Assembly: GCF_020991455.1 (NCBI RefSeq)
Contig: NZ_JAJMOX010000016.1
Coordinates: forward strand, 1 to 64,000
Source: Flavobacterium sp. JAS
GTDB lineage: Bacteria > Bacteroidota > Bacteroidia > Flavobacteriales > Flavobacteriaceae
DNA: 64,000 nucleotides
Direction: 5' to 3'
Position 1 is the stretch's first letter, and each line of letters starts with the position of its first letter. Positions 3,238 to 38,257 of the stretch are shown in pieces. A model generated the notes under the pieces. It did no database searches, was not told where the DNA came from, and saw only the letters and a program-made list of their open reading frames with translations. Position numbers and translations under genes: made by a program.

Positions 3238-6200
3238 ATGAATAAACTTAAGTTACTGTTTTTGGCACTATTTATTTGCCAAATTGGATTCTCGCAACAA
3301 TCTTCTGTTTCAGGAGTTGTTTTGGATCAGAATAAATTGCCTATTGTAGGGGCTAGTGTTTTAGTTAAAGGCACAAAGAAAGGTACGTCAACGGATTTTG
3401 ATGGAAATTTTTCTATCAATTTAGGACAAGGAGAAAAAATTATTCAAATTTCGTCTATTGGATTTGTTACACAAGAATTTAATGTTACAGCAAATTCTAA
3501 AATAAGTGCAATACTTAAGGACGACGTTTCAAAATTGAATGAAGTTGTAGTGGTGGGTTACGGTACCCAGAAGGTAAAGGATATAACAGGTTCTGTGTCG
3601 GTGTTGGACGGGGCTGCGATAGAAGCTAAAAAAACAGTGCAAGTCTCAACTGCTTTACAAGGGGCAATACCAGGTGTTTTTGTTTCAAGGAGCTCTGGCA
3701 GGCCTGGTTCATCAGCAACCATCTTAATTAGAGGAGTTACGTCCTTGGGTGATTCTTCTCCTTTGGTATTGATAGATGGAGTACCAGGTGGAATTGATGA
3801 TGTTAATGCTGACGATATTCAAAGTATGTCTGTTTTGAAAGATGCGGCCGCGGCGGCTATCTATGGATCCAGAGCTGCAGCGGGAGTAATATTGATCACG
3901 ACCAAACGAGCTAAGGATGGTAAGGCAACTTTATCCTATAGTGTAGATTCGGGGTTTCAAATACTAGGGAAGCTGCCCGAATTTGCTGATGCGACAACCT
4001 ATATGGCCTACAATAATCAAATGAGAATTAACGACGGGCAGACCCCTACCTATACACAGGATTATATTGATAATTATTACAAAAACAACGCCTTGAATCC
4101 TGATGCCTATCCCAATACAAATTGGAATAAGACTTTTTTCAAAACTAGTGCATTACAAACAAGGCACAGTTTGTCGATGTCAATCGGATCAGAGAAACTC
4201 AAATCAAACGCATCTATTAATTGGATTGAGCAAGCATCACTCACACCCAATAACAATTACAAAAGATTAAATTTAAGATTAAATAACAATTATGCCTTTA
4301 CAGAAAAAGTATCAGGAATTTTTGATATTAATTATAAAAGATCAATTAAAAGAAGTCCTGCGCAAGCAACTGATGATATTTATGGTGTATACAGAATAGC
4401 GCCTATATGGGATGACTATTATCAGGATGGTCGTTATGCCCCGGGAAGAAGTGGCGAAAATCCAGTGGCAACAGCAATTGAAGGAGGAAATGTAGACGGG
4501 ACGTTTAATGTTTTGGGGGCTAGAATGGGACTTGAATTTGAACCTATAAAAAGATTGAAATTAAGAGCAATTGTAGCTCCAACTATTGGTTTTGACAGAG
4601 AGACAAATTTTACAAAAATTGTTCAATATACCGATGTTTTAGATCCTACTCAGGTTATTGCTACTTCAGCACAAACTGTAAATACACTTAGAGAAGAGAG
4701 TAATAACAGTGAGACGCTAAATATCCAGGCAACTGCAAATTATGATTTTAAATTTAAAGAGAATAAATTTGAATTTTTAGCTGGTTTTGAAGATAACAGA
4801 AATAAAACAGAAGGATTAACGCTAGGAAGAGATGGCTATTTATTTCCTGACTATACTTTAATAGATTCAGGTTCACAAGCAATTCAAACTACAAAGGGTT
4901 ATGCCTCCGAAACGGCTCTTAGATCTTATTTTGGAAGGATAGCTTATAATTTTAAAGATAAATATCATCTTCAAATTAATGGACGTTATGATGGATCATC
5001 TCGTTTTGCCGCTGATTATCGTTGGGGATTTTTTCCATCAGTTGCCGGTGGATGGACAGTATCTGAAGAGCCCTTTGCTAAAAAGATTTTAGGGGATACT
5101 TATTTAAAAATTAGGGGATCCTGGGGTAAGTTAGGAAATCAAAAAATAAGTAATAATAGTTATCCTTATATTTCATCAGTTACTTTAGGTAACAACTTGT
5201 TCTATGATAATGGAGTGATTAAGACTTTAACAACAGGTGATATCAGGACTTTAAATATGGAAGACTTATCATGGGAAACAACGGAGTCCTATAATTTAGG
5301 TCTTGATTTAAAATTATTTCGAGACAGATTAGGCATTACTGCCGAAGGTTATAAGAAAAACACACATGATTTATTGAGGTCTATTCCAATTCTTTCTTAC
5401 ATAGGTTTAAATGCATCACCACAGAATGTTGCAGAAATAGAGACATACGGATGGGATTTAGGATTAAGCTGGAGAGATAAAGTAGGTGAACTCAAATATC
5501 ATATAGAAGCTAATGTGTCTGATAGTAAAACCGATGTAGTGGATTTAAAAGGAACAAAAGATTTAGGTGATAAAGCATTACTTGAAGGTCAGGAATTTGA
5601 AGTGTATTATGGATATAAATCTTTAGGATTTTTAAGTCAGCAAGATTTAGATAATAAAGTTGCACTAGTTAGCGGAACGGAAAAACCCGGTGATATGCGC
5701 TATGAGGACATAAGTGGTCCCATGGGAGTTCCTGATGGGAAAATAACGGGAGATGATAAGGTACCTTTGAAAAGTTCTACCCCGCATTACGTTTACGGAG
5801 GAACTATTGGTATTGATTATAAAAATTTTGATTTTAATGCTTCATTTCAAGGTGTTGGAAAACAAACACGTTATTATACAAGTTTTATGGTGAGGCCTTT
5901 TTTAGCTAGCACAGGTAATGTTCCAATAGATGTAGTTGGAAATACATGGACCCCTGATAATCCTAATGCAAAATATCCCCGCTTAACAGATCAGAATGCA
6001 AGTGCCAATTACAGATTATCAGATTATTGGTTAAGGACAGCTAGCTATTTTAGAATTTCAAATATAACCATAGGTTATACGCTACCTAAAGAGGTGATCA
6101 AAAATATTGGGTTGTCCAGTATTAGGCTTTATGCAACAGGCACCGATGTATTTCTTTCAACAAAATTCCCAAAAGGCTTTGATCCTGAGATTAAGGAAGT

Positions 6201-26464: not shown

Positions 26465-26556
26465 AGTGTGCATTAGAGGATCCGCAGTGCTATAAGTCCC
26501 GAAGGGTTGCGAAGGGCAGCGGAGCAATTATGCGCACGGAGGATACGCTGCACACT
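26465..26556. ncRNA. Compact GC-rich structured segment (possible RNA or element site)
   Basis: In a 354-base gap between ssb and the next gene. An 8-bp outer inverted repeat (AGTGTGCA 26465-26472, TGCACACT 26549-26556) bounds about 76 bases that are much richer in G+C than the surroundings and contain two GGGTTGCGAAGGG-like repeats (CGAAGGG twice at 26500-26517). It lacks an open frame. It could be a small RNA, an origin or a cis site of the mobile element. Nothing else is recognised in the gap apart from a TAATTTTG (-7-like) box at 26654-26661. Confidence 0.35.
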
Positions 26557-26716
26557 ATCTTAGCTGTCTTTTATGCCGTTTCGAGTGAAAATTTAATTTC
26601 ATAACATTTTTTAAAAAGAGTATTTATACGCGCATGAGATTGATTTAAAAATGTAATTTTGGTAAGATTTTAACTGTTTAATTACGTGCAAGATGCTAAC
26701 CCTAAATCAACTACAT

Positions 26717-29548
26717 ATGATAAAAAAAATACTATCTCTTATAATTATGTTTTATTGTTATGCATTACAGGCGCAAAAGTCTTCCCCTGTAATGGGAGAT
26801 GCGGCAATTTTGCTGGATCTTCTAAAGAAAGATTACAGCAGTGTGAACCCTGATATTAAACTTGAAGAGATAAATACAGACAGGGAAAAAGTAATCGGGA
26901 TCTTTAAATCCTATTTAAGGGATGATCAAAAAAATGGTCTCATAGCTACCGATTTTAGTAATAAGCTGGAATCAGACAAAAAAGAGTACACCGAAAGCCT
27001 GCAGTCCTATAACGCAGTGCTTAAAACTTCCATTACAGCCAATAAAGAGTACAATCTAACGACTTTAGAGGGGGAGTTAAAAACGATATATAATAAGTTA
27101 TTAACCTGCAAAAGCAGCTATTATACCAGTAAATATTACAGCGATATTGACCAACTCGGAAAGATACAAGTATTGTATGATACTGTTGATAATGATACAT
27201 TGGTAACCAATGACAATCCTTATTTAGTGGCAGTTATTGAATTGTTTGAAACAAAATATGAAAATGTGGAATTGAACATGCTTGATAATTTTGCCCAAAA
27301 CAATTATAATTCTTCGATTCAAAAATCGCTCCCTTTTATTGGAGGTGATCTGGCTTTTGAAACACTGATAGACGGATTGAGCCGTTTTTTGGCAAAGCGT
27401 ATCAAGCAAGAATTGACCGTATATGCCATTGATAAAATAAAAAAGTACCTCAATGATCCCAAACCGGAGAATTACAGTCAGGAGTTAGTGGTAGTACTGC
27501 CCAAAACAACCAATTATTTAAAACGCTTTGATGCCAATCAATTAATGAGTTTTACCAATGAACTCAAACAGCTTATTGAGGAAGATTTGAACAATATACT
27601 GATCAATGCACAGGGGCTTCGTGATCTTCCAAAAATTAAGAAGTATACAGCAGGCCATCCGGATCTGGAATTTGCATTTGACGGGCTTGAGGTCTTATCC
27701 CAGCTCTCAAAGGTTAAAACTCCCGTTGACTATTTTGAACTGCTAGAGAAAAGCAGGGGACTTGCAGGGTGGCGGGATGATGCCACTAAAAACCCGGAAA
27801 AATACGATATTGCCCAGGGAATCCGATTGGCTTCTATGCTGGCTTATAGTTTAACTGTAGTGGAGAATGGAGAGCAAAGATTTGCCAGTATTGACTTCCT
27901 TTCCAATTATGGCTCAGATGCCAAGTTTTATTTTATGTATTTTGGTTTTCTGCACCAACAGAATCAGAAGTATTTTAAGATTAATTTCAGCAATAATATA
28001 GTACTTAATGTTAGAGGGCTTATGGATCTCATGCCGGTTTCGGATATTGAAAACGGTACGAAAGATTTTAACTTCATACGCGATAATATTACCAGCGTTG
28101 CACAGTATGCCGAAAAGATCCATACAACGGCGCAGTCCATTAAGAAAAAGAATAAAAATAATGAAGAAATAAAGTATGAAGAGATTCATGATTTTGTGGA
28201 TGAGATTATTGAATTTACACAGCAGGTTATTGTCACGGCAGATGTACTACTGAAAAAGGACTATAAGTTTATAGTGCTGCCTGAGGGTGCAGCTGATTTC
28301 GATTTTAAAGCGAAGCTTAATCCTTATTTTACAGTGGCTTCCACAGGTAATGACCTTGTTTTTGATCTGCATCAGAAGAAGTATTCCAATGCTATTATTA
28401 AAGCTGTGGAAATCCCGCTTCTTTTAAATCGGAAAAACACTAAACTCAGCAGTGATCTTCTTGATATCAAGTATCTGGTAGAACAGCAAAATGATTTAGT
28501 ACTGCTTGGAAAAGTATTTAATCCAACAGTTACTCCAGAACAGCTCAAAGCGCTAAAAAGCCCATTGAAAATACTAAGTCTTAAAAAGTCAGATAACGGA
28601 AAGTTAAAAAATATTTCAATGTCACTTGATACACTTATTAATGCAATAGCTGATAAAACTTATGATGCTAAAAGGGATGCTCTAGGTGAAAATATAAAGC
28701 TGGCTTTAAAGGAAAACAAAGATGAGCTGCTGGATTATTTTGGTGTAGATTTAAAAAAAATAAAAAAGCAGATCACTGCTTATCTGCAGGAAAAGAACCA
28801 GTCCAGGGCCGTACGGGATCAGTTTGTGAAAGTAATTGACAGTTATGCAGGTGCCTTGTTCTCGCAGGTTGTTTTGCATGAACCGGACAACACGGGTTCA
28901 AGTACGGAACTAAAAGATCTGTTTATAGCTTTTGCTCCTGACTTTATTAACAGTAATGACATTTTAAAGGATGGACAGGCCTTGAAAATTATTAATTTTT
29001 TAAATGACATTTCACTTGCCGCTACTCCGGAAGATGTAGAGAAAGCCATTGATGCTTTTGCACTTCCTGTAGGGAGTTCTTCTTTAAAAGAAAGAGCAAC
29101 AAGTTATTATGCTATTAATTCCTTTCCCGGAATTATAGGAGGTTTTGAATTTTCAGATCAGCAGCCAAGGGCCGAAACAATTGGTTTTACGGCGCCTGTG
29201 GGGCTTTATTTCCAGCCTTGGGGGGCATTTAAAAAAGGGGGGAGCCTGGGTATTTTTCTGCCTATTATTGATATTGCTGCTCCGGTACGCCTTCGTTTGG
29301 ATAGTAATAATGATACCCAAACCCTGCCTGAATTTGATTTTAAGGATATCTTCTCGCCCGGAGTTTATCTGATCTATGGATTTAGAAATTCTCCAATAGC
29401 GCTAAATCTGGGAATGCAGTATGGTCCTAAATTACGCGATATACCTGTTGGAGACGGCAGTGTTGAATCAGTGGATTCTTATCGAGTAAATGTGGGAGTT
29501 ACCATTGATATTCCCCTGCTGACCTTATCGGGAAAATACAAAAATTAA
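26717..29548 (+). CDS. Large secreted protein of unknown function, partner of the downstream protease
   Basis: 943 residues from ATG 26717, which begins a signal peptide (MIKKILSLIIMFYCYALQAQ); an ATG 24 bases upstream is less likely. The middle 700 residues look largely helical and charged with no repeats or motifs I recognise. The last 130 residues switch to Gly/aromatic strands (AETIGFTAPVGLYFQPWG, GSLGIFLPIIDIAAPV, SPGVYLIYGF, LNLGMQYGPKLRDI, VNVGVTIDIPLLTLSGKYK), which resembles a small outer-membrane barrel. The downstream protease starts two bases after the stop, so they are one operon. A TAATTTTG -7-like box is at 26654-26661. It lies between mobile-element genes and a toxin-antitoxin pair, so it is probably element cargo. 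Function unknown. Confidence 0.75.
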   Translation: MIKKILSLIIMFYCYALQAQKSSPVMGDAAILLDLLKKDYSSVNPDIKLEEINTDREKVIGIFKSYLRDDQKNGLIATDFSNKLESDKKEYTESLQSYNAVLKTSITANKEYNLTTLEGELKTIYNKLLTCKSSYYTSKYYSDIDQLGKIQVLYDTVDNDTLVTNDNPYLVAVIELFETKYENVELNMLDNFAQNNYNSSIQKSLPFIGGDLAFETLIDGLSRFLAKRIKQELTVYAIDKIKKYLNDPKPENYSQELVVVLPKTTNYLKRFDANQLMSFTNELKQLIEEDLNNILINAQGLRDLPKIKKYTAGHPDLEFAFDGLEVLSQLSKVKTPVDYFELLEKSRGLAGWRDDATKNPEKYDIAQGIRLASMLAYSLTVVENGEQRFASIDFLSNYGSDAKFYFMYFGFLHQQNQKYFKINFSNNIVLNVRGLMDLMPVSDIENGTKDFNFIRDNITSVAQYAEKIHTTAQSIKKKNKNNEEIKYEEIHDFVDEIIEFTQQVIVTADVLLKKDYKFIVLPEGAADFDFKAKLNPYFTVASTGNDLVFDLHQKKYSNAIIKAVEIPLLLNRKNTKLSSDLLDIKYLVEQQNDLVLLGKVFNPTVTPEQLKALKSPLKILSLKKSDNGKLKNISMSLDTLINAIADKTYDAKRDALGENIKLALKENKDELLDYFGVDLKKIKKQITAYLQEKNQSRAVRDQFVKVIDSYAGALFSQVVLHEPDNTGSSTELKDLFIAFAPDFINSNDILKDGQALKIINFLNDISLAATPEDVEKAIDAFALPVGSSSLKERATSYYAINSFPGIIGGFEFSDQQPRAETIGFTAPVGLYFQPWGAFKKGGSLGIFLPIIDIAAPVRLRLDSNNDTQTLPEFDFKDIFSPGVYLIYGFRNSPIALNLGMQYGPKLRDIPVGDGSVESVDSYRVNVGVTIDIPLLTLSGKYKN

Positions 29549-29549
29549 G

Positions 29550-30707
29550 ATGAGAGCTGTTTTTATACTGTTTTTTATCTGCTTTTCAATGTGGGCGCAG
29601 GACAAGGACCCTGCCAAGGTATCGACTGAAAGAAGTAAACTGCAGACTGACAAAGCACTTTTTAACAGTGATGCTACAAAAAAAGGCCTTGATGAATCTT
29701 ATATACAGATTATGCAGACCGGTGATGCTCTCTTGAAGCAGGATTTTGATTTAGCCGCTAAAAAACTGTTGCTTGAGGATCAACAAAAAGGTTTAGTTGA
29801 TGCCGGTTCAAAAGAAGCTAATAACGCAACAGTCGTTATCACTGAGAAGGTACTAGACAGTTCTGCCGTCGAATCGAAAATTGAAGCTGAAATTTCAGTG
29901 AAAAGACTCTACGGCCCATCCCAGTTTGACAGCCGAATAGAGCTCCTAGAGTTGGACGTAAATACAAATTGGCAGTTAGAGCTTCTCAATAAGAGCCGAT
30001 CCGTTGCCATGATAGTGGAAAAAGAGAATCTTCACCAACTGGCGAAAGAAGTCTATGTACTTGATGTTTCCCATACACTGGGAGATTTATATGGATTGTG
30101 CCCCAATGAAGCATTTTACAGACAGCCCTCGGCAGGGGTGGGAACCTGTTTTATTTTTAGTAAAAACACTATGCTGACAGCCGCTCACGTTTTGGAAAGG
30201 CCCATTACGGATTATGTTATTGTCTTTGGATATAAGCTTCTGGTTTCCAGTACTAGTGTTCCGGATTATTATTTTGACAAAAATGATATTTACTTTCCAC
30301 AAGAAGTTCTAAAGTGGGACGATGAGCTGGATGTCATAGAATTTAAAGTAGACCGGGATTTTGACAGGCCAGTTTTAGAATGGGAAAACTCTTCGAGAAT
30401 TAAAGCTGAAACTAGTGAGATCTATATGATTGGACATCCAAGTGGTCTGCCGACAAAAGTGGCCTTAAATGCAGGTATTGAAGAGAATAGCCATCCCTTA
30501 TATTATTATACTTCATTAGACAGCTTTCAGGGAAATTCGGGATCACCTGTTTTTAACCTGCAGACCAATAAAATAATAGGAATTTTGGTTGCGGGAGAAA
30601 TTGATTATAAATTTAATGGAAATTGTTATTACAGTTCAATCTGTAAACTTCCTTACTGTAAAGGTGAAAAAGTCATTAGAATTGAAGAAGTGACTGGGAG
30701 ATTTTAA
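29550..30707 (+). CDS. Secreted trypsin-like serine protease
   Basis: 385 residues with signal peptide (MRAVFILFFICFSMWAQ). Residues 20-170 are a charged helical region without a recognised family; the protease domain follows. The complete chymotrypsin-type triad is visible: H213 in MLTAAHVLE, candidate D261 in DELDVIEFKV, S330 in FQGNSGSPVF, with the oxyanion GNSG. An IGHPSGLP segment near 295 is typical of V8/HtrA-like S1 proteases. No PDZ domain is present. The start follows the 943-residue gene by one base, so translation is probably coupled. The helical N-terminal part may be a propeptide or bind the partner. Substrate unknown. Confidence 0.85.
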   Translation: MRAVFILFFICFSMWAQDKDPAKVSTERSKLQTDKALFNSDATKKGLDESYIQIMQTGDALLKQDFDLAAKKLLLEDQQKGLVDAGSKEANNATVVITEKVLDSSAVESKIEAEISVKRLYGPSQFDSRIELLELDVNTNWQLELLNKSRSVAMIVEKENLHQLAKEVYVLDVSHTLGDLYGLCPNEAFYRQPSAGVGTCFIFSKNTMLTAAHVLERPITDYVIVFGYKLLVSSTSVPDYYFDKNDIYFPQEVLKWDDELDVIEFKVDRDFDRPVLEWENSSRIKAETSEIYMIGHPSGLPTKVALNAGIEENSHPLYYYTSLDSFQGNSGSPVFNLQTNKIIGILVAGEIDYKFNGNCYYSSICKLPYCKGEKVIRIEEVTGRF

Positions 30708-32960: not shown

Positions 32961-35339
32961 ATGAAAATAAGATCAATTTTGCAAAGTATTGCACTTTTTT
33001 GTTTGCTGTTTTTTATTAACCCATTTGTAATGGCGCAAATAAAACATTTGAAAGTGAGTGGAGTATATCCGCATCTTGCCACTTTTAATGAAAGCTGGAC
33101 ACTGCCCGGATCCCGTAAGAACATCGGTGGGGATGGAGGCGAAAATGGTATTGGTGCAATCATTCCCTGGGCGGGACAATTATGGATGGTCACCTATTCG
33201 CCTCATATGCCAAATGGTAGTTCAGATAAACTTTACAGTATTACTAAAGATTTGCAGGTTACTATTTATCCCCAGAGCATTGGAGGAACTCCGGCAAATC
33301 GAATGATCCATAAGGAATCAAACCAATTAATAACCAGTAATTATTTTATAGATAACAAAGGAAAGGTAAGAGTAATTCCATTTTCAATAATGCCGGGGAG
33401 AATGACAGCAAATGCCCGTCATTTGACAGATCCCGCTAACATGGTTTATTTTTATGATATGGAAGGGATGCTCTATGAGGTGAATGTGCATAGCCTAGCT
33501 GTAAAGAAGTTGTTCCACAAACCGGTACCTGGTTGGCATGGAAAAGGGGCTTATACCGCTCAAAAACAATTGGTGGTTGCCAATAATGGAGAAGAGCCTG
33601 TCTTTAAGCTAAAAAAAGAAGATCTGCAAGCTGGTGATTTGCCAAAAAGTGCTGAGGACAAAGGTGTTTTAGCAAGTTGGAATGGAAAAGAATGGAAAAT
33701 TATAGAACGTAAACAATTCACAGATGTAACTGGTCCGGGTGGTATTTATGGTTCACCAAATGATAAAAGCCCGTTGTGGAGCATAGGCTGGGATAAGCGT
33801 TCTGTAATATTAAAATTACTGGATGATGGCCAATGGTACACTTACAGGTTACCAAAAGCGGCCCATACTTACGATCACCGTGGAGGATGGTATACAGAAT
33901 GGCCTCGTATAAGAGAAGTGGGTAATGGAAAGATGCTGATGGATATGCATGGGATGATGTACGATTTTCCAAAAACCTTTTCCAGAGATAACAGTGCAGG
34001 CATTACTGCGATAAACACGCACCTGCGTTATATTCCCGATTTTTGTTACTGGAACAATCAATTGGTAATTTCGACCGACGAAACCACAGTACTTGGGAAT
34101 CCATTGGCAGGTCGTTCACAATCCAATTTATGGTTTGGGCAATGGAATGATTTGAAAAACTGGGGTACTCCAACAGGATGGGGTGGGCCTTGGGAGAATG
34201 ACCAAGTGAAAGCAAATGAGGAGTCAGAAAGCTTTTTAGTTAACGGGTTTGATCAAAAGGTACTGCATTTAGAAGCGGATAAGACTACGAGTATAACGCT
34301 GCAAATTGACAGAACAGGAAACAATAAATGGGAAGATTATAAAGTTATTAAAGTTCTGGCAAACCAATACCAATATTTTGTTTTTCCAGCTGATTTTAAA
34401 GCAACCTGGATTCGTTTCAAAACAACTCTTGATTGCACAGCAACAGCGTTTATGCACTTTACCAGTAAAGCTAAAAATGCAGATCCAGCACTGTTTAAGA
34501 CCCTTGAAAGCATAGAAGGGAATGGTGTAATCAACGCTAACATCATCCGTCCCTCGGATTTCAACAAAAACTTGCAGGTACTAAATACCAACGGAAATAA
34601 GTACACCGAAGTTGACGAAAAATTGAACACGGTACTCAACACAATAGACAGCACAAGCCAGTTGCTTAGGCTGGGTGAATTTAAGAGAGATTATCTAACG
34701 GACGATGCGTCAGTGATCATAAAAGACCATACCGGAACTTTTCGTTTACCAAAAGGCTCAGCAGTTTATGAGAACTTCATATACCGCGATAAAAGAGAGG
34801 TAGAGTCAGAGCGGTTCATGAACAATATTACGGGAACTTTCTATGAAACGGGCAGGGAATCAGGATATCTTGCCATCAGGCCGATTACTACTCACAATAA
34901 AAAGATTGTAGATTTCTGTACCTGGAGAGGTTTATTGGTGTTAAGCGGAACCAAAAAAGACAGCAAAACAGACGGTCATTATTTCGGTGATAAGAACAAC
35001 GGTTTATGGTATGGTGCCATAGATGATTTGTGGAAATTAGGCAAAGCAGTCGGTGAGGGAGGAGTTTGGAAAAATACCAATGTGATGGCTAATGAAAAAT
35101 CATTACCCTATTTGATGACAGGCTATGATCAAAAATCTGTTCAATTGACAAGTGATAAAGAAGTTGATATTACATTGGAAGTTGATTTTGATTTAACCGG
35201 TTTTCATAATTACCAAACTTTTCATGTGCCTGCGGGAAAAACAGTCGTATATCAGTTTGCGAAAGGCTTCAGTGCACACTGGATAAGAGCAGTTTCCAAT
35301 AAAGCCTGTAAGGCCACAGTTTGGTTTACTTACCAATAG
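32961..35339 (+). CDS. Secreted beta-propeller-like protein of unknown function
   Basis: 792 residues with a signal peptide (LFCLLFFINPFVMAQ). I do not recognise the family. The sequence is rich in Trp/Gly/Tyr strands with repeating pieces such as WAGQLWMVTYSPH, SPLWSIGWDKRSVI, WNNQLVISTDETT and WRGLLVLSGTKKD, suggesting propeller blades. Two internal segments are similar: SNLWFGQWNDLKNWGTPTGWGGPW (about 385-405) and NGLWYGAIDDLWKLGKAVGEGGVW (about 680-705), each followed by VKANEESESFLVNGFDQKVL or VMANEKSLPYLMTGYDQKSV and a beta-sandwich, so the architecture may be propeller-sandwich repeated. It is driven by the PUL 1-type promoter and is probably a glycan-active or glycan-binding protein; catalytic residues cannot be named. 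Confidence 0.65.
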   Translation: MKIRSILQSIALFCLLFFINPFVMAQIKHLKVSGVYPHLATFNESWTLPGSRKNIGGDGGENGIGAIIPWAGQLWMVTYSPHMPNGSSDKLYSITKDLQVTIYPQSIGGTPANRMIHKESNQLITSNYFIDNKGKVRVIPFSIMPGRMTANARHLTDPANMVYFYDMEGMLYEVNVHSLAVKKLFHKPVPGWHGKGAYTAQKQLVVANNGEEPVFKLKKEDLQAGDLPKSAEDKGVLASWNGKEWKIIERKQFTDVTGPGGIYGSPNDKSPLWSIGWDKRSVILKLLDDGQWYTYRLPKAAHTYDHRGGWYTEWPRIREVGNGKMLMDMHGMMYDFPKTFSRDNSAGITAINTHLRYIPDFCYWNNQLVISTDETTVLGNPLAGRSQSNLWFGQWNDLKNWGTPTGWGGPWENDQVKANEESESFLVNGFDQKVLHLEADKTTSITLQIDRTGNNKWEDYKVIKVLANQYQYFVFPADFKATWIRFKTTLDCTATAFMHFTSKAKNADPALFKTLESIEGNGVINANIIRPSDFNKNLQVLNTNGNKYTEVDEKLNTVLNTIDSTSQLLRLGEFKRDYLTDDASVIIKDHTGTFRLPKGSAVYENFIYRDKREVESERFMNNITGTFYETGRESGYLAIRPITTHNKKIVDFCTWRGLLVLSGTKKDSKTDGHYFGDKNNGLWYGAIDDLWKLGKAVGEGGVWKNTNVMANEKSLPYLMTGYDQKSVQLTSDKEVDITLEVDFDLTGFHNYQTFHVPAGKTVVYQFAKGFSAHWIRAVSNKACKATVWFTYQ

Positions 35340-36208: not shown

Positions 36209-38257
36209 ATGAAATCAAGAATTTTATCTTTGACCGTTGTTTGGTCTTTTTACATCCTACTAGTGCTGACTTTATTTTGTCTGCCAGAACAGTTGTTTGC
36301 TCAGCCGCCAGCGGGCTATACCCTGGCATTTGAAGATAACTTCAACGACAATTTGCTTAATATCACCAACTGGTATTACCGCGCTTTCTCCAAACCAACC
36401 AAGGGATATAATATGAAAGAAAACGTATCTGTGGAAACAGCTGAAGGGACTGGGTACCTGAGAATCAATTTCAAAAAAGATGCAGATGTAGATAATGACG
36501 GACTACTGGATTTTACCGGTGGCGGTATTATTTCCAAAAAACCTTTCGGATATGGGTATTTTGAAACCCGTATAAAATTCTATAATGATACAAGGGGGCT
36601 GCACCAATCCTTCTGGACCCATGGAATGGGTAAATATGCCTACAGCTCAGGGGAAGACGGCTATACGGAAAGCGCTAAAAATGATAACGTGCCCACTGAG
36701 AATTGGCTTTCGGAAATAGATGGTATCGAGTTGGATTCTAAATATCAATTTGGCATTACCAACTTTCATTTTAACCTGCCTCCCTGCAATTGTCCAAGGG
36801 AAGTCGGTACTAAACCACATCGTAATCACTCCGGGGACTACATGAACCTGTCGAATTGGATAACAGTAGGATTTGAGTGGTCACCGGGTATGGTAGTGTA
36901 TTATGTGGATGGGATAGAGAGGCAACGGTTCTCCTATACCACTCCCGGATTTTCACCTGTAGAGCTCTGGCTCACTGCACTGGGTGGTTATGGAAGTGAC
37001 CTCAGTACAGCACCTCTTGCGGGAGCGGCAATGAAAGTGGATTATTTCAGGTACTACAATAAACCTACCTGGGGCAACCTGCTGGGTAATTTTAGTTTCG
37101 AATTCGGCAAACAAAACGAGGAACCAGTGAAAAACTGGATCGTGAACGATGGTGTTTATGACAACGAATTAACTGATGGTGCCAGGGTGGTGTATGATGG
37201 AACAGCTCAGGAGGGTGAGGGCTATCTGGCACAGGACTTTAAGGCCAATGGAGCTGCACTTACAGTGAAACAGAATTTAGCTTACATCCCCAACGGCTCT
37301 TATAAAATGACTGCCTTTGTAAAACGTTCACCCGGAGCAGGTTCTGCCAATATGCGGGTACTAAACTATGGAAGTGCCAAGGCGGTAGCTATTCCGGTAA
37401 CCAATACCTGGACAGCCGTAAGTATAGACAATATAGAGATAACTACTAATAAAATAACAGCCGGCTTTACCACACAGAATGGAACTGCGGGGGGAGGTAT
37501 TATGGTAGACAGGGTGGAACTTCTGAACAAGAGTTTTGGCGAGCCTGCGACCTCTTCCCTTATCGTGGACAATGGGGATCCCGGTTACTTAGAATCCGGG
37601 ACCTGGAATGACAGCGTCCTTACCGGTTATAATGCTACCAATACACGCCAGAGTTCCTCTGCTGGTGCGTATGCAAAATGGACGCCCAATATCCCGGTTG
37701 CCGATAACTATGATGTATACCTGTACAGGATTGTGAATTCAGCTTCAGATGGTAATTCCAAACTCACAGTAAACTACGCCGGAGGTGAGGCCACCTTATT
37801 TATCAATGATACATTAACTACAAAGAGCCAGTCGAGTTGGGTATTTATTGGTACTTATCCATTTGATCAAGGGAATGCCGGTTATGTGCAAAAAACCAAA
37901 AGTGCAGGTGGGGCCATGACCAGAGGCGATGCGGTTGCTTTTGTCAAGCCCGGTTCACCTTTATCGGCGCTAATTCCTGAGCAAACTCAGGCCAAGCAAC
38001 TAGCATCCCAAGCTATTGTTTATCCAAATCCGGTCACTGCAAACAGTTTCAACCTAAGTTATGAACTAAAAGAGCCAACAGATATAAGTGTCAAAATTTA
38101 TTCTTTAAGTGGTTCTTTGGTGAGTGAGCAAAATTTTAAAAGTACCCAAACAGGTCCCCAGCGACAGAATATACCATTTAACAGCCCACCGGGCAATTAT
38201 ATATTAAACCTGTATTACGGAAGTGAAGTGATCAAAACAATTTTAATAAAAAAATAG
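36209..38257 (+). CDS. GH16 enzyme with CBM-like, golvesin-like and T9SS sorting domains (paralog B)
   Basis: 682 residues: signal peptide (ending EQLFAQ), GH16 catalytic domain (about 35-285) with SEIDGIELDS (E169, D171, E174), GYGYFETRIKFYND and the WITVGFEWSPGMVVYYVDG strand, a CBM4/9-like sandwich (about 290-445, GNFSFEFGKQNEEPVKNW), a golvesin/xanthan-lyase-type sandwich (about 450-590, DNYDVYLYRIVN...SSWVFIGTYPF), and a T9SS type-A C-terminal domain (about 604-682, IVYPNPVTANSFNLSYEL...GNYILNLYYG). The sorting domain means it is exported across the outer membrane and anchored or released, so it is probably the surface endo-acting enzyme. It lies in the satellite of PUL 1; a remnant of its binding domain follows directly. 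Confidence 0.9.
   Translation: MKSRILSLTVVWSFYILLVLTLFCLPEQLFAQPPAGYTLAFEDNFNDNLLNITNWYYRAFSKPTKGYNMKENVSVETAEGTGYLRINFKKDADVDNDGLLDFTGGGIISKKPFGYGYFETRIKFYNDTRGLHQSFWTHGMGKYAYSSGEDGYTESAKNDNVPTENWLSEIDGIELDSKYQFGITNFHFNLPPCNCPREVGTKPHRNHSGDYMNLSNWITVGFEWSPGMVVYYVDGIERQRFSYTTPGFSPVELWLTALGGYGSDLSTAPLAGAAMKVDYFRYYNKPTWGNLLGNFSFEFGKQNEEPVKNWIVNDGVYDNELTDGARVVYDGTAQEGEGYLAQDFKANGAALTVKQNLAYIPNGSYKMTAFVKRSPGAGSANMRVLNYGSAKAVAIPVTNTWTAVSIDNIEITTNKITAGFTTQNGTAGGGIMVDRVELLNKSFGEPATSSLIVDNGDPGYLESGTWNDSVLTGYNATNTRQSSSAGAYAKWTPNIPVADNYDVYLYRIVNSASDGNSKLTVNYAGGEATLFINDTLTTKSQSSWVFIGTYPFDQGNAGYVQKTKSAGGAMTRGDAVAFVKPGSPLSALIPEQTQAKQLASQAIVYPNPVTANSFNLSYELKEPTDISVKIYSLSGSLVSEQNFKSTQTGPQRQNIPFNSPPGNYILNLYYGSEVIKTILIKK

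Follow-up and report, generated by a model that had tools for sequence, protein, structure and literature searches.

Protease-partner modules have so far been described mainly for cytosolic immunity. Bacterial gasdermins, which are cytosolic and have no export signal, are an example in which one constant partner is encoded beside proteases of different classes. The Spl proteases and the V8 glutamyl endopeptidase are of class S1B. Protease-activated nucleases form nuclease-protease and caspase-nuclease (canu) pairs in which, according to the available part of the source, the partner is a pro-nuclease tied to immune systems (PMC12799240). Mutually exclusive trypsin and caspase peptidases, S8 peptidases, trypsins fused to transmembrane (TM) segments and alpha/beta hydrolase companions are listed, in the accessible text of PMC7159879, for nucleoside triphosphate (NTP)-dependent conflict systems. 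Here we describe a two-gene system of Flavobacterium sp. JAS, located in a stretch of 64,000 nucleotides (contig NZ_JAJMOX010000016.1, positions 1 to 64,000), hereafter the window. The genes encode BIG, a large exported protein, and PROT, a secreted trypsin-like serine protease. Computation shows that the operon pairing of BIG and PROT is tight and co-inherited, and that different protease families adjoin related BIGs.

The BIG-PROT gene pair

The two genes lie on the same strand and are separated by one base, as reported in the initial annotation: the BIG stop codon ends at 29548, and the PROT ATG is at 29550. Full-length relatives of BIG were found in 13 genomes, and in all 13 loci the next gene downstream, on the same strand, encodes a PROT relative, at distances of -44 to +5 bases according to our own gene caller; one of the 13 loci, G224, is split across contigs. 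The co-occurrence search suggested in the annotation was carried out in the genus sample (398 genomes), to which the search for PROT alone was limited. The PROT profile (E<=1e-10) marks 9 genomes, exactly the 9 which carry full-length BIG, and PROT adjoins BIG in each, so that the two were never found apart. Pairwise distances of BIG and PROT correlate (r 0.949 over 12 genomes), none of 5000 permutations being as high, and the BIGs linked to PROT group together in a single clade (100/100) when 61 BIG proteins are placed on a maximum-likelihood tree. The distance correlation and the exact pairing show co-inheritance, not contact. BIG and PROT are conserved families, paired beyond chance.

The features of the pair are the following.

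26717..29548, plus strand: BIG, exported protein of 943 amino acids (aa), unrecognised family, constant component (open reading frame (ORF) call, family scans, alignment of relatives)
26717..26773, plus strand: putative signal peptide of BIG, residues 1-19, presumably cut before Q20 (Q20 invariant in 12 of 12 aligned sequences; cut site LQA/QKSS by eye)
27284..27766, plus strand: conserved helical core of BIG, residues 190-350, common to the wider family (alignment, conservation; helical in a low-confidence model)
28517..28966, plus strand: poorly conserved stretch of BIG, residues 601-750, separating the core from the C-terminal domain; L044 and L045 lack it (alignment, conservation)
29021..29545, plus strand: C-terminal beta domain of BIG, residues 769-943, probable small outer-membrane barrel, used to recognise family members (profile, periodicity, low-confidence model)
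29550..30707, plus strand: PROT, secreted trypsin-like serine protease of 385 aa, Spl/V8-like (ORF call, Pfam, alignment, PDB profile search)
29550..29597, plus strand: putative signal peptide of PROT, residues 1-16 (by eye)
29598..29903, plus strand: poorly conserved N-terminal extension of PROT, residues 17-118, possible propeptide (alignment, conservation)
30141..30584, plus strand: trypsin-like domain of PROT, Pfam Trypsin_2, residues 198-345 (Pfam)
30186..30188, plus strand: catalytic H213 of PROT (invariant in 13 of 13 aligned sequences)
30330..30332, plus strand: catalytic D261 of PROT (invariant in 13 of 13)
30537..30539, plus strand: catalytic S330 of PROT, in GNSGSPV (invariant in 13 of 13)

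BIG has a second in-frame ATG at 26693, from which it would measure 951 aa; the ATG at 26717 (943 aa) is preferred because the resulting signal peptide aligns with those of the relatives. The N-termini of BIG (LQA/QKSS) and PROT (SMWA/QDKD) look like Bacteroidota-type signal peptides, in agreement with the export of both proteins proposed earlier. Signal peptides were judged by eye throughout; the threshold of the hydropathy scan is too strict, and misses short ones including those of BIG and PROT. Residues 601-750 of BIG, flanked by two conserved modules, show low conservation (0.35-0.39). The C-terminal domain occurs as a single copy in its own genome.

That the system is unrecognised, as the annotation had it, was borne out by the searches. 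Neither outcome that the annotation named as refuting it was obtained for the full-length pair: no characterised family was matched by BIG, and in the genus sample BIG and PROT did not occur apart. Neither Pfam nor NCBIfam contains a family that BIG matches above cut-off, and no gasdermin family is matched in either; in Pfam, no autotransporter beta-domain was matched by BIG or by the set of C-terminal domains. Profiles of the long form and of the C-terminus gave nothing credible against PDB sequences. In PADLOC the window BIG has weak matches only (best E 0.005, to PtuB1), and at E<=0.001 no match was obtained for four BIGs of the wider family, one TM protein and one TM-S1 fusion. The C-terminal sorting domain of the type IX secretion system (T9SS; Por_Secre_tail) was found neither in BIG nor in PROT by family scan; the window protein encoded at 36209-38257 does match it in the same kind of scan.

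PROT matches Pfam Trypsin_2 with E 1.1e-15 (59 bits, curated cut-off 27.6) and, in PADLOC, RT-Protease_XI (6.1e-13). Among solved structures, its profile finds SplA (E 2.1e-7), SplE (9.5e-6) and V8 protease (4.2e-5). The triad H213, D261, S330 noted in the initial annotation is intact in all aligned relatives, and four cysteines are invariant in the alignment. The helical extension of 170 residues described there has to be shortened: the conserved region begins at L120 (RLxGPSxxDSRxE), and the poorly conserved part in front of it measures about 105-118 residues. As conservation runs from L120 onward, residues 120-197 probably belong to the enzyme module.

The wider BIG family and its protease partners

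By sequence, BIG is a member of a wider Bacteroidota family, made by proteins of 562-1261 aa featuring a helical core and a C-terminal beta domain. This family, and the change of partner protease within it, go beyond the initial annotation. In the genus sample 30 of 398 genomes contain BIG relatives, in the family sample 8 of 299, the own genome being included in each count. Genomes other than those with full-length relatives match only the core (about 174-563) plus the C-terminus (about 745-943), or the C-terminus alone. The C-terminal domain profile was matched in 23 of 395 class-sample genomes (20 of 196 genera) and in 12 of 296 phylum-sample genomes, own genome included.

Neighbouring genes, called with our own script, were surveyed in 61 loci (designated by L and a number) from 58 genomes. 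L122, in which a subtilase and a TM gene adjoin a fragmentary BIG frame, and L056, the other end of the G224 gene on another contig, were dropped before counting; L036 and L037, from the same genomes as L014 and L015, were counted once. According to our classification, in which a divergent caspase-FGE gene (L105) and an S8 gene three positions away (L117) are not counted as partners, a protease is adjacent on the same strand, or fused, in 40 of the 61 loci. Partners are PROT (secreted S1, 13 loci), S8 subtilases directly upstream of BIG (10 loci), membrane S1 enzymes, which are membrane proteins with a trypsin-like domain at the end (6 loci), TM-S1 fusions, made by a conserved membrane protein and a trypsin-like domain (3 loci), other trypsin-like genes (3 loci), M43 metalloproteases fused in front of BIG (2 loci; Pfam 1.8e-19 and 1.1e-18), and M48-like metalloproteases (2 loci, both weak). 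In L101, a trypsin-like domain is found behind the N-terminal segment that precedes S8 elsewhere. These classes rest partly on local profiles and motifs, several S1 calls on motifs and local alignment. The local S8 profile included L101, an S1 protein by a separate S1 profile and alignment. In the 36 listed loci with BIG and a partner, the genes are on the same strand at distances of -55 to +38 bases.

The S8 partners of L046, L058, L063, L065, L107 and L116, scanned singly, pass Pfam. Among the 13 S1 partners other than PROT, L050 alone is above the Pfam cut-off of those scanned singly; L100, L101, L103 and L109 were scanned only in the pooled Pfam count or by profile. Since catalytic D, H and S are present in all 12 S8 rows, and H, D and S in all 15 S1 rows aligned, S8 and S1 partners look like working enzymes. 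The protease domains of partners other than PROT match subtilase, caspase and RT-Protease_XI models in PADLOC. The label 'SH3-like', considered for the N-termini of some partners, found no support in Pfam.

In the pooled Pfam scan of 111 immediate neighbours, Trypsin_2 was found in 17 (up to 13 may be PROT relatives, as members are not listed) and Peptidase_S8 in 9. In the control, made up of 120 genes at a distance of four or five positions (137 were picked), each occurs at most once, because neither is among the families with two or more members. Five later loci, from the phylum sample, carry S8 partners in two cases (5.6e-33, 6.7e-33) and a C14 caspase in one (9.6e-18).

The changes of partner were mapped on the maximum-likelihood tree (61 BIG proteins, 634 columns; a quick tree was also made). 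S8 partners need 6 changes, at least 4 of which are forced by well-supported branches, and membrane S1 partners need 4; some positions on the tree are uncertain owing to eight long branches, and losses may account for part of the changes.

The C-terminal domain of BIG

The barrel-like end that the initial annotation had assigned to BIG holds as far as the periodicity of strands is concerned; other support for it is weak. Hydrophobicity averaged over 37 C-terminal domains alternates with period two (180-degree moment, z 3.8 against shuffles; 100-degree, z -0.9), and alternation is strongest in the last strand of BIG (920-936). Sub-threshold Pfam matches were obtained to PagL in 2 of 37 domains (best E 0.022) and to Phenol_MetA_deg in 1 of 37 (E 0.012), both of which we take to be barrel families. 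Structures of BIG and PROT were each predicted from three sequences (window, L014, L015). The low-confidence model of BIG (mean predicted local distance difference test score, pLDDT, 41.9) is helical up to residue 781, and mainly strand thereafter; periodicity and model suggest about 6-8 strands. Because of the period-two alternation, the weak PagL and Phenol_MetA_deg matches and the strand-rich end of the model, the C-terminal domain is likely a small outer-membrane barrel.

Topology and companion genes

Signal peptides are visible by eye at the N-terminus of the window BIG, most BIG relatives, PROT, the L139 caspase and the M48-like proteins, and none is visible at the start of S8 partners or L101. 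Each of the three TM-S1 fusions has its protease behind three predicted membrane segments. For the six enzymes of the membrane S1 class the scan gives two or three segments, with one more visible by eye in L047 and L066; by the positive-inside rule their protease domains are likely cytoplasmic, an assignment of which we are unsure. Of 80 genomes, 4 contain a membrane companion, A8, in full or almost full length, and all 4 carry S8-linked BIG. Including weaker or shorter relatives, A8 marks 9 of the 80 genomes, all among the 30 BIG-positive ones and none among 50 chosen BIG-negative ones.

Other genes were observed in individual loci. The C14 caspase of L139 (4239-6299), whose N-terminus resembles a signal peptide, is encoded 3 bases downstream of BIG; exported caspases are, as far as is known, unusual among bacteria. 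In L105 (9392-11299), a caspase fused to an FGE-sulfatase domain is divergently transcribed beside BIG. L058, an S8-type locus, features an extra gene (4220-5107) which encodes a GH25 lysozyme (E 5.6e-33) with no visible signal peptide; genes resembling it in size, place and N-terminus are found in L069 (10390-11286, no Pfam match) and L099 (4489-5376). Directly downstream of BIG are a DUF900 alpha/beta hydrolase in L114 (5966-7432; 1.1e-11), an alpha/beta hydrolase below cut-off in L108 (6177-7385) and a borderline patatin-like gene in L140 (7564-10260). Genes behind the M43-BIG fusions in L059 (6804-7829) and L061 (8145-9167) probably encode an LpxR-like lipid A deacylase, assigned by eye; LpxR was matched by 2 of the 111 neighbours in the pooled Pfam scan. 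Large membrane proteins, related by eye, are encoded downstream of the BIG operons in L101 (3662-7243, 1193 aa) and L108 (2629-6147, 1172 aa).

Genomic setting in the window

Upstream of BIG, on the opposite strand, are ssb, DUF7222, PcfK and PcfJ genes; downstream of PROT are HigA-like and AbiEii genes. These are the ssb/pcfK/pcfJ and toxin-antitoxin flanks originally described, the HigA-like gene scoring below the NCBI cut-off. The reading of the region as mobile-element territory, made in the same annotation, was dropped, since no plasmid, phage or viral relatives and no integrase were found and the flanks are not common to other loci. Specifically, blastp (E<=1e-3) found no counterpart of the window ssb/pcfK/pcfJ and toxin-antitoxin genes near the other 12 full-length loci, compared over four genes on each side, fewer at contig ends. 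No integrase is encoded among 20 window ORFs scanned with Pfam, PcfJ and PcfK being the only conjugation-type genes there; among the ten further ORFs included in the 20, most of those with a match are polysaccharide-use or regulatory genes. Full-length BIG relatives were found neither in plasmid or phage records (tblastn) nor in viral contigs (two peptide patterns). Isolated cases are the relaxases of L038 and L049 and the HsdM gene of L045.

G+C measures 0.36-0.41 across the BIG-PROT pair, 0.42-0.45 across pcfJ/pcfK/ssb. A Bacteroidota promoter pattern was not found near the pair, and sigma-70-like sites occur at chance level (18, 15.4 expected). The intergenic region upstream of BIG (26470-26560) is G+C-richer by eye, and may be structured or a dispersed repeat. 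The downstream gene at 32961-35339 encodes a secreted-looking protein of 792 aa with no Pfam match, found at E<=1e-50 in 1 of 60 genomes, its own.

What the pair may do

We give about an even chance to the reading that BIG is a constant exported scaffold or receptor of the envelope, working with a protease that is exchangeable in evolution. BIG would be anchored in the outer membrane by its C-terminal beta domain, and its long helical body would reach into the periplasm, where it may serve as docking site and regulator of the protease. For the window type, this would be a Spl/V8-like enzyme with a variable, propeptide-like N-terminus, exported beside BIG. Elsewhere in the family BIG may be coupled, partly via a separate inner-membrane protein, to a subtilase that shows no export signal or to a trypsin-like enzyme bound to the membrane. 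BIG would be the receptor or scaffold, the protease the output.

Several points weigh against this reading. No protease was found in 20 of the 61 loci where looked; the upstream neighbour is cut off by a contig end in at least three of the 20 (L064, L111, L115). L105 has only the divergent caspase-FGE gene, and 2 of the 5 later loci have no protease. The M48 calls are weak (motif only in L110; E 0.0077, below cut-off, in L113), and the L069 subtilase has no Pfam match. Trypsin matches are below the Pfam cut-off in L053, L066 (E 0.021), L068 and L070, and absent at E<=0.02-0.05 in L047, L048, L062 and L071. With local profiles, PROT loci excluded, 23 of 88 neighbours match, and none of 348 genes at a distance of four or more positions does; the near side of this test is largely circular, as 20 of the 23 matching neighbours built the profiles, and only the absence among distant genes is informative. 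Relatives of the inner-membrane protein A8 lie away from BIG in six genomes. Neither structure is reliable (mean pLDDT 41.9 for BIG, 31.1 for PROT), and the evidence for the barrel consists of periodicity and sub-threshold Pfam matches.

A role of BIG systems in conflict or defence is a guess, suggested by the patchy distribution, the turnover of partners and the single companion genes (GH25, hydrolases, patatin). No neighbour of BIG proves it, and BIG is absent from PADLOC. A more specific version, which we hold tentatively and consider doubtful, would make the system a trans-envelope executioner. BIG, an outer-membrane sensor with a periplasmic arm, would trip the protease when a phage or competitor attacks the envelope, and the cell would be killed or remodelled. 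The signal might pass directly to a periplasmic protease (window type), or via an inner-membrane protein to proteases on the cytoplasmic side; the GH25 lysozyme, the alpha/beta hydrolases and the patatin-like lipase of single loci may add lytic outputs. The sensor would have been kept and the protease swapped in evolution.

Alternatively, BIG may be the substrate, cut by the partner protease, perhaps in 601-750, to free or activate a pore-forming or toxic fragment, following the logic of gasdermins or protease-activated nucleases. The exact pairing in the genus sample, the poorly conserved 601-750 stretch between two conserved modules, and the export of both BIG and PROT in the window type are in keeping with this. 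Protease-activated effectors, too, combine one constant partner with proteases of varying class (PMC12799240). Yet L044 and L045 have PROT but not the 601-750 stretch, the S8 partners have no visible signal peptide while BIG has one, and two loci have the protease fused into BIG. A direct substrate role fits poorly with partner proteases devoid of an export signal, and a constant partner with replaced enzymes, covalent fusion included, speaks for BIG as a holder of enzymes; we consider the substrate hypothesis unlikely.

It is improbable that PROT is an ordinary secreted protease for protein feeding which BIG anchors at the surface or binds. The window flanks do contain genes of SusC/SusD-like, glycoside hydrolase and sulfatase type, and Bacteroidota often tether hydrolases. 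However, the displayed neighbours of the other 12 full-length loci are by eye unlike such a locus, PROT and BIG have no T9SS sorting domain, many partner proteases have no visible export signal, and the BIG family is patchy in the genus. Very improbable is a translocator or autotransporter-like BIG exporting or displaying its protease, since, for all that the two M43-BIG fusions have a lipobox-like N-terminus (by eye), the protease first and the beta domain last, no autotransporter family matches, about 6-8 strands are suggested compared to 12 in classical autotransporters, and PROT has its own signal peptide.

Comparison with known systems

No paper on BIG-protease pairing was found in literature searches, the coverage of which excludes most subscription journals. 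PROT is by sequence closest, among solved proteins, to the staphylococcal Spl and V8 proteases, and has an S1-type triad; it differs from them in its variable N-terminal extension, the conserved LxGPSxxDSRxE segment, the four invariant cysteines, and the presence of a partner gene.

Exclusive peptidase classes, TM-fused trypsins and alpha/beta hydrolase companions recall the NTP-dependent conflict systems. The components named for these in the accessible text of PMC7159879 are ATPase/GTPase, vWA, Trypco or NucA ones; an exported barrel protein is not among them. No ATPase/GTPase core, as expected for vWA/MoxR or GTPase conflict systems, is among the 25 commonest of 119 families in the 111 BIG neighbours, EAD/Trypco not having been searched for. 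Nuclease-protease and canu pairs share with BIG-PROT the two-gene logic, in which a trypsin-like or caspase-family protease is paired with another protein; compared to the pairs described in the available part of PMC12799240, BIG is exported and has no nuclease match. Bacterial gasdermins resemble BIG in the adjacent protease gene, and differ from it in that BIG has a signal peptide, relatives of 562-1261 aa, and no gasdermin match.

Should BIG prove to be the constant half of a modular protease system, a family fitting no curated model tested here could be tested in culturable Flavobacterium, and the swapping of S1, S8, M43, C14 and perhaps M48 enzymes round one exported partner would extend the protease-partner logic to the Bacteroidota envelope.

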